This document shows, in pieces, positions 3,840 through 31,003 of a stretch of DNA of 38,143 bases. Under the pieces are notes generated by a model that saw nothing but the letters and a program-made list of their open reading frames with translations, searched no databases and was not told where the DNA came from. The DNA is from a virus. The position numbers and the translations under genes were made by a program. Positions within the stretch are counted from its first letter, which is position 1. Each line of letters opens with the position of its first letter. The stretch lies in IMG/VR virus record IMGVR_UViG_3300021197_000272, positions 1 to 38,143 of that record. The stretch is one strand, 5' to 3'.

Positions 3840-3851
3840 CAACAATAACAC

Positions 3852-23650: not shown

Positions 23651-23937
23651 TTGAATAACAATCCCTTACAAATGAGACCCATAATAGGGGAAGGGGGAAT
23701 AAGCCTATCTTAGGATAGCCCCGAAGGTGGATGATCTAAGGATTCTTTCCAATAACATCAACAATAACACTATCTTAGAATTATCCCGAAGGTAGGTGAT
23801 CTAAGGATTACCAACAATAACACTATCTTAGAATTATCTTATGAGACCTTAGAATAAGGGGGACTTAAGGAGATCTAAGAATAGCTCTAAGAGTAGGTGT
23901 TAATGATTACCTATACATACCAACCTATCAGTGTTTA
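23651..23937. other. Non-coding repeat region after the lysis gene
   Basis: 287 bases without a supported gene. The central part is filled with CTTAG/CTAAG-containing repeats (separate entry), and the flank 23651-23700 has a purine run GGGGAAGGGGGAAT. I see no clear terminator hairpin with a T-run after the amidase. The position after terminase and endolysin is where T7-type genomes carry their physical ends. Confidence 0.6.
23705..23838. repeat. Imperfect 40-bp tandem repeats with CTTAG/CTAAG cores
   Basis: Copy a at 23705-23744 and copy b at 23770-23809 match at 34 of 40 positions (both start CTATCTTAG and end TGATCTAAGGATT). A third partial copy starts at 23822. A perfect 27-base direct repeat, beginning CAACAATAACACTATCTTAG, occurs at 23759-23785 and 23812-23838. 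Copy a contains the palindrome CTATC-TTAG-GATAG (23705-23718). More CTTAG/CTAAG elements continue to 23895. T7 has clustered 7-base repeats beside its terminal redundancy, so a packaging or end function is plausible. Confidence 0.85.
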
Positions 23938-24219: not shown

Positions 24220-24526
24220 GTTTTAGTTACAAAAATGTGAAGGGGTATATGTAGAGATTCGAGCCGAAAAATCCCCCCAAGCCCCCATCGAAAACGCCAC
24301 AATAGGCGACAAGCATACACAAAAAGCACAAGGGGGGTATGTTATCTACTGAGCGACAGACACAAAGAACAACATATAGAATGTTTTTTGCATTGGCTTT
24401 GCTTGATTGTTACCTTAGGCGGAGCCACAATCGAAATTGTATAATCCACAGCCTGGTTTTCGTTAGCGCTTGTTTTTGTGTTGTCACCCCTTTTGAAATG
24501 TAGCTGTATGCACAATGTAAACACAA

Positions 24527-24603
24527 CCTAGTAACACCTATGGCCTACCTATGATCTACCTACTACCTACCTAGTAACACCTACTGTCTACCTATGATCT
24601 ACC
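24527..24603. repeat. Direct repeat pair of 34 bp with CTACCTA elements
   Basis: 24527-24560 and 24570-24603 agree at 31 of 34 positions; both start CCTAGTAACACCTA and end CTACCTATGATCTACC. The 9-base spacer TACTACCTA continues the CTACC theme, so seven or more CTACC/CCTA elements lie in 80 bases. The array lies about 100 bases before the first early gene. Candidate roles are a short-repeat block beside the terminal redundancy, as in T7, or iteron-like protein sites. Confidence 0.85.
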
Positions 24604-24964: not shown

Positions 24965-25327
24965 ATGAAAACACAAGAAACCAAGAAACCAAAAGCAGTC
25001 TCGTTCAATTCACACGAGCTACCAACACCAACACCAACAACCGCCACAAGGAAACTAGGCTCCAACCGAGGCAAAACTCGCCTATGGTTAGAGGGTAACA
25101 TCCTAGAAAACCACGGCTGGACCACGGGTGACAAGTTCGACGTGGTTATGATCGACGGTGTGTTAAAGTATGTTAAGCATTCCAACGGAAAGCGAAAGGT
25201 AGCCGGGAAGCCCGGTCGTCCTATCATCGATACCAATACCGACAAGATTAGCCACACCTTGAACGCCAAGCCGGGGGCGGTTGTTAATGTTATAGTCACA
25301 AGCGAAGCAATCACTATCCAGAAATAG
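24965..25327 (+). CDS. SymE/AbrB-like beta-barrel protein
   Basis: 120 residues. After a basic, proline/threonine-rich N-terminus comes GKTRLWLEGNILENHGWTTG and DKFDVVMIDGVLKYV, which follows the SymE pattern (RLWL.G.WLE.AGFT.GD...V....G.L). A basic linker GKRKVAGKPGRPIID leads to a second short beta unit ending VNVIVTSEAITIQK. The SpoVT/AbrB-like fold is used by DNA-binding regulators and by SymE-type toxins. A transcriptional or host-directed role is inferred; the family match is from memory and moderate. Confidence 0.6.
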   Translation: MKTQETKKPKAVSFNSHELPTPTPTTATRKLGSNRGKTRLWLEGNILENHGWTTGDKFDVVMIDGVLKYVKHSNGKRKVAGKPGRPIIDTNTDKISHTLNAKPGAVVNVIVTSEAITIQK

Positions 25328-26833: not shown

Positions 26834-26868
26834 GAGCAGCCTAGGGGAAACCTTGGGCTGCTTTTTTG
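26834..26868 (+). terminator. Rho-independent terminator ending the first early block
   Basis: AGCAGCCTAGG and CCTTGGGCTGCT (26851-26862) form a stem with one bulge and a short GGAAA-type loop, followed by TTTTTT. It separates the early gene block from the integrase region and would let the two be controlled separately, much as the T7 early terminator limits host polymerase. Confidence 0.85.
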
Positions 26869-26900: not shown

Positions 26901-27424
26901 ATCGTTGGGGCAAAAAACATCTTTACACGATGAAAGTTTTCGGCTAATCGTTGTGCATGGCTACAAAAACAATAGAAGAGCTGTTCGAAATTACCTTTGT
27001 GAATCGTTGGGCCGAAAAAGCCCGAGCTGAGGTAGAGCAACGTAACATTTCCTTTTGGTTAAAGAACCTACCGAAGACCACCAGGGGCTTATCGTTGGGC
27101 GTAATCGACAAGATCATATTGTCAGAGGTAAAGAAGGGTAACAAACCTTCAACCATTAACAGTAAACTACAGACCTTGAAGACCACCCTGGATTTCACAA
27201 GGGAACGCGGGATGCATGACGTTGGGTTCAAAGTCCCACGGTTAAAGCAACCAAGCGATGCCCGTATGTCGTTCTTTAGCGAGGAGGACCAAGAGGCCAT
27301 CGAGGCTTTGATTGATGACAAGGGCTTTCGGTTGTTCTTTCGTTGGTCTATTGCGACAGGTCTTCGTCCATCGGAATCGTTGGGCCTAAAGTCCTCCATG
27401 ATTCGCCGTGACCCTATCGTTGGG
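26901..27424 (+). repeat. Five copies of the 9-mer ATCGTTGGG across the integrase locus
   Basis: Exact copies lie at 26901, 27003, 27091, 27376 and 27416, all on the + strand. A near copy ATCGTTGTG is at 26947, and CGTTGGG recurs at 27220. The first copy is non-coding; the other four are read in three different frames (CGT TGG, TCG TTG, ATC GTT), so protein coding does not explain them. Possible integrase arm sites or another DNA-level signal. Confidence 0.7.
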
Positions 27425-27766
27425 CCGGTGATTGATATTGTTAAAACAAAGAACGGGGAGCCAAGGACCATACCGCTCACCCGGAAAGCCTTGGAGGCGC
27501 TCGAAACTGTCGGGGAGTGGAAGCGTTACACCAGCTACCGAATCACCCGAGAGTGGGCAAGGTTGCGTCGAAAAGACCCGGAAGCTTTGAAGGATTTTGT
27601 GTTTTATACGTGCCGACACACGTGTGCCACTCGACTACTGTCCAAGGGTGTTAACATCAAGGTGGTCCAGAGTTGGATGGGACACAAAGACATCAACATG
27701 ACATTGAGATACGCAAAGCTCGTGCCGAGTGACCTTGCAGCAGCCCGTGACATCCTAGAAAAATGA
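26957..27766 (+). CDS. int: Tyrosine recombinase / integrase
   Basis: 269 residues from ATG 26957 (a TTG 6 bases upstream is an alternative). It has an N-terminal SAM-like core-binding domain (about residues 1-95) and a C-terminal catalytic domain. Arg137 is in ATGLRPSESLGLK, the beta-hairpin is KTKNGEPRTIPLT, Arg220 is in YTCRHTCATRLLSKG, His243 is in WMGHKDINMTLRY and the nucleophile is Tyr252. The usual first His of H-x-x-R is Tyr217. It would integrate phage DNA at a host att site. It lies upstream of RNA polymerase as in integrase-bearing marine T7-like phages. The recurring ATCGTTGGG sites surround and lie within it. Confidence 0.93.
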   Translation: MATKTIEELFEITFVNRWAEKARAEVEQRNISFWLKNLPKTTRGLSLGVIDKIILSEVKKGNKPSTINSKLQTLKTTLDFTRERGMHDVGFKVPRLKQPSDARMSFFSEEDQEAIEALIDDKGFRLFFRWSIATGLRPSESLGLKSSMIRRDPIVGPVIDIVKTKNGEPRTIPLTRKALEALETVGEWKRYTSYRITREWARLRRKDPEALKDFVFYTCRHTCATRLLSKGVNIKVVQSWMGHKDINMTLRYAKLVPSDLAAARDILEK

Positions 27767-28071
27767 AGCACTTATTATTCATTACCGAGACGTTTCGTCG
27801 CGCCGGAATCAACACCATGTATCGAGCGACTCTTTGCGTGGCCGTTGGGGCTAAACCAGGCATAAGCATTATTACCCTTGCTTCTCTTCTTGAGACAACA
27901 CCGGAAGCGATCAGGGTGGCCATGCGTGGTCTTGTCTCCGATCATTTGGTTACCGTTACCAAGGTGTTGGATAAAACCAACAGATCGAAGGAGACTCGGG
28001 TCTATCCGACGCCTCGCTTGAAGGATGTTATTTCGGCTCTTACACCTCAAAACAAAAAAACAAAACCATGA
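27763..28071 (+). CDS. Winged helix-turn-helix regulator
   Basis: 102 residues, overlapping the integrase stop (ATGA). SIITLASLLETTPEAIRVAM forms a helix-turn-helix and RGLVSDHLVTVTKVLDKTNR the wing strand, like MarR/ArsR-type domains that read a following wing before a basic end. Being coupled to the integrase it may be the excisionase-like or lysogeny regulator, but direct evidence is only the fold. Confidence 0.7.
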   Translation: MKHLLFITETFRRAGINTMYRATLCVAVGAKPGISIITLASLLETTPEAIRVAMRGLVSDHLVTVTKVLDKTNRSKETRVYPTPRLKDVISALTPQNKKTKP

Positions 28072-28385
28072 GACAAATAAATCCAATAGCCAAAGCTTGG
28101 GCGAACGTAGAGAAATCTCAGCACAAGCATGAACTGTATAAAGCCTATCGGAGGCGTCGTGAGAAACCAGCAAGGGAGTATCTTGATGGGACACATTTGT
28201 TTGAGCGTTCCTTTTCGGATGTCAAAACAGGTGAAACTAAGATCATGGGTGGACGCGAAGCCAAGGAGTTGAATGCATTTCTGTTCCAAGAGTACATTAA
28301 ACTTTGTGATGCTAACAATGAAAACAGATCATTAGAGCGTTGGAAAGTAATTAAAAGATTTTACCAGTCAGAAAAAACATTATGA
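28068..28385 (+). CDS. Hypothetical basic protein
   Basis: 105 residues, basic and helical (AWANVEKSQHKHELYKAYRR; EKPAREYLDGTHLFERSFSD), not recognised. It overlaps the preceding gene by 4 bases and the following one by ATGA, forming a tight chain integrase - wHTH - this - small basic protein that ends before RNA polymerase. Confidence 0.6.
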   Translation: MRQINPIAKAWANVEKSQHKHELYKAYRRRREKPAREYLDGTHLFERSFSDVKTGETKIMGGREAKELNAFLFQEYIKLCDANNENRSLERWKVIKRFYQSEKTL

Positions 28386-28546
28386 GAATAGAGCGCAAAT
28401 ACCTAAGTCACCGGGACCAAATAAAAGTGCAAATACTTGAAGATGAATGCTTGATGTTATCCCAGCGCATTGCTAGGATCGTCAAGAAGCGAGATCGCTT
28501 GATGCGGAAACGCGACAAGATTCTTGATAAGGGACTAGAATCGTAG
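28382..28546 (+). CDS. Small basic coiled-coil protein
   Basis: 54 residues, MRIERKYLSHRDQIKVQILE then a helix with heptad-like spacing and many Arg/Lys (RIARIVKKRDRLMRKRDKIL). It probably dimerises through a short coiled coil and binds nucleic acid or protein. It begins in an ATGA overlap and is the last gene of the integrase operon. Confidence 0.55.
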   Translation: MRIERKYLSHRDQIKVQILEDECLMLSQRIARIVKKRDRLMRKRDKILDKGLES

Positions 28547-28609
28547 GGAGAACCTCGGGCGCGGTTGCTTGTTTACCGTCATTGAACACCCTTATCAACT
28601 CCTTCACAT

Positions 28610-31003
28610 ATGGAACAAAACGAACTCAACCAAGAGATGTTAGATCTCGGGGTCCAACGGTACAGAAAGAACCGGACGACCAACAAAGGATCACTTACCA
28701 ACGCCGGAAGACGCATAATGCGTGAAGGTGTGGAGCCAGTTACGTTGGGCCTAGTTGAGTTGCTTCCGACAATAGATAAAATTAAAAACAAGTCACAGTG
28801 GCAACGCTGTTTAGTGGATGTTAAAGACTTTCGCCCGATAGCACTGATAGCCGTAAAGGCTACCTTAGATGTCCTCGACGAGCCTCGTTCCTATGCTAGT
28901 GTGTGTTTTCGCTTAGGACGGGCCGTCGAGGACCAACTACTTTCCGACAACTTCATACGTAACCACGAGTTCGGGTCGAGATTGGTTAAGCGTATGCAAG
29001 ACTTAGCGAGCCGGGGACCAGCAACCCAAAGCGCCTACCTCCACAAGACCGCCCGGAGTGAGGACATGGAGTGGACCGATTGGACCCGCCGGGATCGCAT
29101 CTCGTGTGGCTCCATGTTGCTTGAGATTGTCCATGATCGCACTGGTCTTATTAAGTTTACTGACAAGGTCCAACGCCAACGCCGCCACTACAAGCCGATG
29201 CGGATGGTGGAGATCTCTGATGTTACTAGAGAGTGGATCAACGAATACGACACCTACCGCGAGTTATTGTTACCGTTCTGGTTACCGATGGTGGAAAGCC
29301 CGGAGCCGTGGCACAAGGTGTTTGGTGGAGGCTATGGTATCAACAAGGACCAAGGGCTACCTGTTCTTCCGTTCATCCGATGCTCTGATCGTAATGTCCT
29401 AAGGATGGCACCTGACATGCCCCAGGTTTACAACGCGGTCAACCTCATCCAAGAGACACCCTATGCCATTAACAACCGAGTCCTTGAGATGCTTGAGTGG
29501 GCGTGGGAGAAAGATTTACAGATTGGGTTACCACCTAGGAACGACCTAGAGCTACCTGAGTGGCCCGGTGATCACATGTCGCTGGAGGAAACACGCAACT
29601 GGAGGGACGACAAGCGGGAACGCGCAGCCTATAACACCTCGTTGGGTTCACAGCGCATCCTCATCTCCAAGATCTTGATGTTATCGCGGAAGTTTCGCAA
29701 CGAGCGTATGTTCATGCCGTCATCGTGTGACTTTAGGGGTCGAGTCTATCAGGTGCCAAGCTACCTTAACTACCAAGGCCCGGATCACTGTCGAGGATTG
29801 TTACAGTTTCACCGAGGTAACCCGATAAAGTCCGACGACGACCTAAGATGGCTTGGGATACACGGGGCTAACTGTTTCGGTAACGACAAGTGTGACTTTG
29901 AGACACGCCTAAAGTGGGCCGATGGGTTCACACGGGATGCGATACGAATTGCTAACGACCCTAAGTCCAACCGAGAGTGGGCCGATGCGGATGAACCGTG
30001 GCAAGCGTTGGCGTGGTGCTTTGAGTGGGCCGAGTATCACACGAAACGGTCGAAAAATTTTAGGACGTTCCTGCCTTGTGCGATGGACGCAACCAACAGT
30101 GGCCTTCAGCTTCTGTCATTGTTAAGTAGGGACGAGGAAGGATGCTTTGCAACTAACGTCTCACCTACCGAAACACCTCAAGACATCTATAGGTTGGTCG
30201 CGGATCACACGTTGGGTAAGCTCAAGCAAGATGCAGCCAAGGGTAGGGACTACGCACGGCTTTGGGTTGAGTTTGGGATCGATAGAAAGACCTGCAAAAG
30301 ACCGTGCATGACGGTTTCTTACGGCTTAACTCCTTACTCCAACAGGGATTACGTCGCTGACTGGTATGACACCACCCGAAGAGAGCGTGGGATTGACTGT
30401 GTGTTCGGTCGTAGTCACATGTATCCAGCCATCAAGTATCTAGGTGACACCCTGTGGGACAGTATCCAAGATTTGTTAACCAAACCTAAGCAAGTGATGA
30501 ACTGGTTCCAAGATGTCTCCCGGCTGATGACACGACAGGAGCTACCACTCACTTGGACAACACCTAGTGGGTTCCGGGTCAGTCAAGACTACCGCAAACA
30601 AGTGAGTCGAAAGGTAAGCACTTGGTTGAACGGATCGTTAACATCGGTGCGCTTCAAGGATGCTACGGACGACCTCGACCCAAGACGACAGAGCAATGGT
30701 GTAGCCCCTAATGTTGTGCATTCCTTGGATGCGGCTGGCTTGGTCCTGAGTGTTAACGAAAGTTGGAAGCGTGGCTTGTATGATTTCGCCATGATCCACG
30801 ACAGCTTTGCCACACACAGTAACAACTGCGAGACACTTGCGTCATCACTCCGGGACAGCTTCAGCGAGATGTTTACAAAAGATATTCTTGCAGACCTAGC
30901 CGAAGCGTGGCAGAACGAATCTTACGAGGAGCTACCAAGCCTTCCCGACTACGGAACCTTTGATGTTAACACATTACGCGACTCTAAATACTTTTTCAGT
31001 TAA
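28610..31003 (+). CDS. Single-subunit DNA-dependent RNA polymerase, T7-type
   Basis: 797 residues (T7 gp1 is 883). Conserved sites: CDFRGRVYQVPSYLNYQGPD (DxxGR motif, Asp374); MDATNSGLQLLSLLSRDE with catalytic Asp493; RKTCKRPCMTVSYGL with Lys563 and Tyr571, spaced as T7 Lys631/Tyr639; HDSF with His730-Asp731, matching T7 His811/Asp812; C-terminus LRDSKYFFS. The promoter-recognition region lies around TTPSGFRVSQDYRKQVSRKV. It would transcribe the middle and late genes. Its own leader is not T7-like, and I could not derive a phage promoter consensus, so its target sites are still open. Confidence 0.97.
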   Translation: MEQNELNQEMLDLGVQRYRKNRTTNKGSLTNAGRRIMREGVEPVTLGLVELLPTIDKIKNKSQWQRCLVDVKDFRPIALIAVKATLDVLDEPRSYASVCFRLGRAVEDQLLSDNFIRNHEFGSRLVKRMQDLASRGPATQSAYLHKTARSEDMEWTDWTRRDRISCGSMLLEIVHDRTGLIKFTDKVQRQRRHYKPMRMVEISDVTREWINEYDTYRELLLPFWLPMVESPEPWHKVFGGGYGINKDQGLPVLPFIRCSDRNVLRMAPDMPQVYNAVNLIQETPYAINNRVLEMLEWAWEKDLQIGLPPRNDLELPEWPGDHMSLEETRNWRDDKRERAAYNTSLGSQRILISKILMLSRKFRNERMFMPSSCDFRGRVYQVPSYLNYQGPDHCRGLLQFHRGNPIKSDDDLRWLGIHGANCFGNDKCDFETRLKWADGFTRDAIRIANDPKSNREWADADEPWQALAWCFEWAEYHTKRSKNFRTFLPCAMDATNSGLQLLSLLSRDEEGCFATNVSPTETPQDIYRLVADHTLGKLKQDAAKGRDYARLWVEFGIDRKTCKRPCMTVSYGLTPYSNRDYVADWYDTTRRERGIDCVFGRSHMYPAIKYLGDTLWDSIQDLLTKPKQVMNWFQDVSRLMTRQELPLTWTTPSGFRVSQDYRKQVSRKVSTWLNGSLTSVRFKDATDDLDPRRQSNGVAPNVVHSLDAAGLVLSVNESWKRGLYDFAMIHDSFATHSNNCETLASSLRDSFSEMFTKDILADLAEAWQNESYEELPSLPDYGTFDVNTLRDSKYFFS

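Follow-up and report, generated by a model that had tools for sequence, protein, structure and literature searches.

The closest described counterparts of the repeat array considered here include the stoperators of cluster A mycobacteriophages (L5 type), numerous short asymmetric sites of 13 bp that are scattered genome-wide in one orientation with respect to transcription; most of the stoperators are not in promoters, one or more are located at a promoter, and the repressor that binds them blocks elongation (PMC6550527). In SPbeta, the repressor MrpR/YopR has the tyrosine recombinase fold, has lost catalysis and reads a repeated element of 15 bp, SPBRE, in promoter regions; the same authors point to integrases that act as repressors of their own synthesis (PMC10516654). 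The class II pause/termination signal of T7 is another short word, ATCTGTT (PMC9624206), and in T7-like cyanophages, integration was observed in the absence of stable lysogeny, with no homologue of a repressor detected (PMC8776855).

The present array belongs to IMGVR_UViG_3300021197_000272, a T7-like marine phage of the family Autographiviridae, genus Ayaqvirus, the entire 38 143-nucleotide sequence of which is hereafter called the window; judged by the integrase (95% identity), AP013544 (Ayaqvirus) is the nearest named phage. Like the stoperators, the Ayaqvirus array consists of a repeated asymmetric site in a single orientation relative to transcription. One copy overlaps the predicted promoter of the integrase gene (int). 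Unlike the stoperators, the sites are 9-10 bp long instead of 13, lie in coding sequence, are confined to the region from int to the RNA polymerase (RNAP) gene except for a few opposite-strand matches, and have no dedicated repressor that could be recognised. A comparison with MrpR and with the phi3T repressor SroF is suggested by the fold: here too, a protein of the tyrosine recombinase fold may read a repeated phage element that controls promoters. In contrast to MrpR, the Ayaqvirus integrase (Int) retains its catalytic residues, and most of its putative sites are inside int. The copies, at ~9-10 bp, asymmetric, direct and beside int, also resemble lambda-type arm sites and Cox-Xis direct repeats; they differ from the arm sites in that Int has no arm-binding domain, the spacing is irregular, the sites extend into int and the RNAP gene, and attP was not found in searches. 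Finally, the repeated word is, like the T7 class II signal, short, asymmetric and on the coding strand, but it reads ATCGTTGGG, one base shorter in the shared part and then continuing with GGG, and it is clustered at int and nearly absent where the phage polymerase serves. The array can be considered a variant of repeated phage operator systems that, as far as our literature search reached, has not been described for these phages.

The repeated word and its setting

The word ATCGTTGGG occurs five times in the window, always on the plus strand and within positions 26901-27424 (Table 1), compared with 0.18 copies expected on both strands and at most one in dinucleotide shuffles. A recount of the copies reported in the first-pass annotation (26901, 27003, 27091, 27376 and 27416) agrees in position and strand, and the near copy at 26947 is ATCGTTGTG, which indeed ends one base 5' of the ATG at 26957. 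The exact complement of the word on the same strand is absent from the window. Its core CGTTGGG, with C or G as the usual next base, is found 15 times, the 10 plus-strand copies all within 26903-30216 and the five minus-strand copies all elsewhere. The continuation of this core at a lower density to ~30.2 kb, traced previously through 27220, 28743, 29640 and 30210, stands, but a copy at 27843 had been overlooked. Similarly, the coding copies do fall in three reading frames, although two of the four (27091 and 27376) share a frame and both encode S-L-G.

Table 1. Features of the int-RNAP region, with positions in the window
Feature	Positions	Strand	Remarks
Intrinsic terminator 5' of int	26835..26867	+	Read from aligned upstream sequences
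ATCGTTGGG, copy 1	26901..26909	+	Noncoding, between terminator and predicted -35
Predicted int promoter	26922..26950	+	TTTACA (26922-26927), 17 nt, TAATCG (26945-26950), ATG 6 nt on
Degenerate copy ATCGTTGTG	26947..26955	+	Overlaps predicted -10/start; ends one base before ATG (26957)
Tyrosine integrase gene (int), 269 aa	26957..27766	+	Core-binding and catalytic domains
ATCGTTGGG in int	27003..27011	+	Frame N-R-W
ATCGTTGGG in int	27091..27099	+	Frame S-L-G
Core copy GACGTTGGG in int	27218..27226	+	
ATCGTTGGG in int	27376..27384	+	Frame S-L-G
ATCGTTGGG in int	27416..27424	+	Frame I-V-G
Position of core copy ACCGTTGGG in relatives	27506..27514	+	Mutated to CTGTCGGG in the window
Small wHTH-like protein gene	27763..28071	+	Fast evolving
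CGTTGGG in wHTH gene	27843..27849	+	Conserved in L004; also in L071 gene at the wHTH position
T7-like single-subunit RNAP gene	28610..31003	+	
CGTTGGG in RNAP gene	28743..28749	+	
CGTTGGG in RNAP gene	29640..29646	+	
CGTTGGG in RNAP gene	30210..30216	+	

Ranked by over-representation score, ATCGTTGGG comes second among all 9-mers of the window, and it is this word that is clustered. When the codons of the genome were shuffled synonymously, with the noncoding copy kept fixed so that the floor is one, five copies arose in none of 1000 replicates and four copies in one; clusters of five within 524 bases, for any 9-mer, were absent from 300 such shuffles, that is, a codon-aware randomization does not reproduce a cluster of this density. 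When up to one mismatch is allowed, the repeated 9-mers of the integrase region reach seven copies, compared with a maximum of four in shuffles.

The similarity among the copies is limited to ~9-10 bases, with different upstream flanks. The possibility that the copies are phage RNAP promoters is rejected, as they share only these ~9-10 bases and no longer common sequence. The spacing is irregular (40-158 bases), with no helical phasing apparent by eye. Asymmetric repeats in the same orientation within a coding region are familiar from the iterons of lambda O, and the present copies share these properties, so that replication iterons or another polar, Chi-like DNA-processing signal can be considered. 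The irregular spacing and the lack of a recognised clade-wide initiator gene speak against iterons, and a Chi-like signal would be expected to spread genome-wide, which is not seen; the polar signal proposed in the first-pass annotation retains a small chance, but the sites are local to the int-RNAP region, and such a role is very unlikely.

The wHTH-like protein encoded next to int has no match in Pfam or PHROG. Further downstream, the order is RNAP (at 28610), a gp2.5-like SSB, and then primase and DNA polymerase (names according to the AP013544 annotation). The terminator 5' of int has a stem that is altered on both sides among relatives (upstream alignment, most lineages). Several other elements of the window are worth recording. 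Immediately 5' of the RNAP gene, GGTTGCTTGTTTACCGTCATTGAACACC (28563-28590) shows clade-wide conservation, occurs only once in the window and may represent a promoter or a regulatory site. A 120-aa early protein (24965-25327), the sequence of which recalls AbrB/SymE-like folds in the absence of a Pfam match, is a possible regulator, and two 35-base direct repeats, ACCTAGTAACACCTA...GATCTACC, with 43 bases between them, occupy a gene-poor early stretch (24526-24603). Imperfect repeats on ATCTTAGAAT and GATCTAAGGAT, directly 3' of the terminase and amidase genes (23698-23900), recall the short repeats beside the T7 terminal repeats and probably mark the genome end. The intergenic words AACAATAACA and TAACAACA at 3841, 6908, 7379, 25504 and 34286, often directly 5' of start codons, perhaps reflect the host translation-start context. 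A scan of a genome collection for relatives of Int found one 48% identical protein (Rhodospirillaceae bin) and two distant matches only, and no close prophage was detected in 36 genomes of the related order.

Conservation and turnover among relatives

The conservation set of 62 loci, several of them partial, includes 32 distinct integrase genes with 74-100% identity. The genes that are complete at both ends contain five to eight CGTTGGG copies each, always in the sense orientation. The copy at +421 (27376 in the window) is present in all 32 relatives, with identical codons, followed by those at +48 (27003; 30 of the 32), +461 (27416; 25), +136 (27091; 24), +263 (27218; 20) and +551 (the 27506 position; 14). 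The +461 copy is missing only from the clade with 74-78% identity, where a copy appears at about +628, in a variable stretch ~165 bases 3' of the lost +459/+461 copy. Upstream of the coding region, many relatives have an intact TAATCGTTGGGCATG before the int ATG, at the place of the degenerate window copy; this promoter copy is absent in four relatives (L007, L009, L012 and L017). The 26901 copy is shared with L005, L008, L014, L015, L020 and L034 and elsewhere is gone along with its flank.

Conservation of the sites extends to silent positions. The codon entropy among close relatives is 0.12 at site codons, compared with 0.65 at other conserved residues, and the copies at 27003 (+46) and 27376 (+419) lack any synonymous variation across up to 32 sequences, six-fold R, S and L codons included (P<1e-5 against degeneracy-matched codons). 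In the RNAP gene, which carries copies in the relatives as well, the CG in the core of the 28743 copy persists among close relatives in which the first residue is S, A or T. In several lineages, accessory genes between int and the RNAP gene also contain exact, lineage-specific copies, and one accessory gene bears a copy in both L008 and L071, the Int of the latter being 80% identical to that of the window. The silent-site conservation, together with the turnover of the sites, which either persist in relatives or are replaced, supports the argument of the first-pass annotation that the sites are functional at the DNA level, beyond amino acid needs; neither of the outcomes named there as refuting it was observed. 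Chance combined with codon and amino acid bias would draw on the common tripeptide S-L-G, which is encoded at 27091, 27376 and 29639 alike; this explanation is refuted by the codon shuffles, the silent-site conservation and the replacement copy, and is almost certainly wrong.

In eight records of the clade (near-complete or partial), nearly all exact copies are in the int-RNAP region, on the gene strand; the few remaining ones lie elsewhere, on the other strand. When IMG/VR was scanned for exact matches to TAATCGTTGGGCATG, 65 stretches were detected, with clusters only in this phage group, and every cluster stretch that covers int has this integrase (L171 ends just inside int). Neither the Int relatives with at most 48% identity nor ten integrase-bearing T7-like phages from GenBank showed repeated 9-mers above shuffles. 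In sum, these are real sites with conservation at the DNA level, a fixed orientation and a local distribution, and they are tied to this integrase clade.

The predicted promoter and the level of action

In every lineage aligned upstream of int, a -35-like hexamer (TTTACA, TTGACC, TTGCCG or TTGCGT), a spacer of exactly 17 nt, a -10-like hexamer (mostly TAATCG) and another 6-8 nt precede the ATG, although the -10-like hexamers are poor TATAAT matches. A site sits between -10 and the ATG in most lineages. This arrangement predicts a leaderless int mRNA. Because the pre-ATG copy spans the predicted -10/start, and the 26901 copy lies 12 nt 5' of the predicted -35, both would be outside this mRNA, and this is the main argument that the sites probably act at the level of DNA and not of RNA.

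Recognition of AUCGUUGGG in the int mRNA by a protein or small RNA would be compatible with the location of all copies on the sense strand of transcribed genes and with the copy that abuts the start codon. Apart from the two copies outside the predicted transcript, however, accessibility of the sites in predicted folds is not above that of other 9-mers, and the window lacks the exact complement on the same strand; we regard RNA-level sites as quite unlikely. A pause or termination signal for the phage RNAP, analogous to the T7 class II signal (PMC9624206), is highly improbable: ATC-GTT does resemble ATCTGTT, the orientation follows transcription and the RNAP co-varies with the sites, but these are nearly absent from the remaining genome transcribed by the phage polymerase, and the noncoding copies surround a predicted promoter of the host type.

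A different kind of repeat is found upstream of int in two relatives, L021 and L022, where tandem 12-base units, TTGTGTCCGTCC and CTGGGTCCGTCC, lie ~100-250 bases 5' of the gene (2615-2720 in L022). The units include GTGTC and GGGTC, which we take to resemble T7 primase recognition sites, and the tandem array is possibly an origin or a lagging-strand start.

Candidate readers and proposed role

The model of Int (mean pLDDT 75, pTM 0.54) consists of a four-helix core-binding domain from residue 6, followed by the catalytic domain; according to the model and a fold search, Int lacks an N-terminal arm-binding domain. Among solved structures, the matches include Tn1549 Int (82-397), Xer, lambda Int (many 75-356) and, lower, phi3T SroF. 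The catalytic residues R137, K165, R220, H243 and Y252 are kept, with Y217 where H is usual, so Int looks like an ordinary active recombinase.

Arm-type and Cox-like sites are 9-11 bp long, asymmetric, directly oriented and located near int. The copies fit in all these respects and co-occur with this integrase clade, which would be compatible with accessory recombination sites, that is, an array bound by Int or a directionality factor that shapes attP and controls integration and excision. Nevertheless, this alternative is unlikely, and the integrase arm sites of the first-pass annotation in particular are disfavored. Int comprises only the core-binding and catalytic domains, without the arm-binding domain; sites reach ~470 bases into int in the window and +628 in the 74-78% identity clade, and continue into the RNAP gene, far past a normal attP; no tRNA fragment was found near int, comparison of the int region with 385 genomes of one bacterial class gave no att-like match, and one copy is on the predicted promoter start. 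A search for an inverted site pair that could be the attP core for Int gave a best pair with four mismatches, which is unremarkable given the exact copies.

Operators for the adjacent wHTH protein, as a lysogeny regulator, were another early suggestion. The wHTH gene adjoins int in an operon, and in several other Autographiviridae with an integrase, annotations place a MarR-type regulator next to int. However, where Int identity is 90-95% and the sites are unchanged, the wHTH protein has only 51-63% identity and an altered presumed recognition helix, and the sites persist in L059 and L067, in which no wHTH gene is recognisable. Because the protein is too variable and is not recognisable in these two phages, it is an unlikely reader, and the operator idea in this form is a long shot. 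At the wHTH place between int and the RNAP gene, L059 (5525-5908) and L067 (4427-4804) encode a small DnaA domain IV protein (PF08299, above the cut-off in L059).

Among the recognised DNA-binding proteins, only Int invariably occurs together with the sites, no other shared repressor candidate could be recognised in the clade, and tyrosine recombinases clamp asymmetric half-sites. Thus, the most likely reader is Int, although this is the least certain part of the explanation, and a host protein is a possible reader as well. A regulatory role of the operator type in general agrees best with the data. Our preferred explanation, in which our confidence falls somewhat short of even, is that the ATCGTTGGG array is an operator/roadblock system for int that would be read by an orientation-sensitive, sequence-specific DNA-binding protein; the promoter, repression and roadblock are all elements that we infer from the sequences. 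Under the operator/roadblock scheme, protein bound over the -10/start copy and the copy 5' of -35 would block initiation at int, and the copies within int, together with the sparser ones in the next genes and the RNAP gene, would serve either as auxiliary operators or as polar roadblocks in the path of the transcribing polymerase. If Int itself binds, its core-binding and catalytic domains would clamp an asymmetric half-site of ~9-13 bp, and Int would therefore repress its own synthesis; because it keeps the catalytic residues, it would be integrase and regulator at once. Several findings weigh against this explanation: the search for an inverted core pair gave nothing convincing, Int looks catalytically active whereas MrpR is not, the -10-like hexamers match TATAAT poorly, and four relatives are devoid of the promoter copy. 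That a catalytically intact integrase of a T7-like phage is its own repressor, reading an oriented half-site array in the promoter and in three coding frames, is a more specific claim that we consider doubtful but worth entertaining; if it is true, each int gene bears its own brake wherever the gene moves.

Integrase-bearing T7-like phages are very common in the sea, and little is known of how they control integration and lysogeny. An operator-like array in int that is both oriented and conserved provides a concrete handle on this control; it is also a clear example of regulatory DNA superimposed in several frames on a coding sequence.
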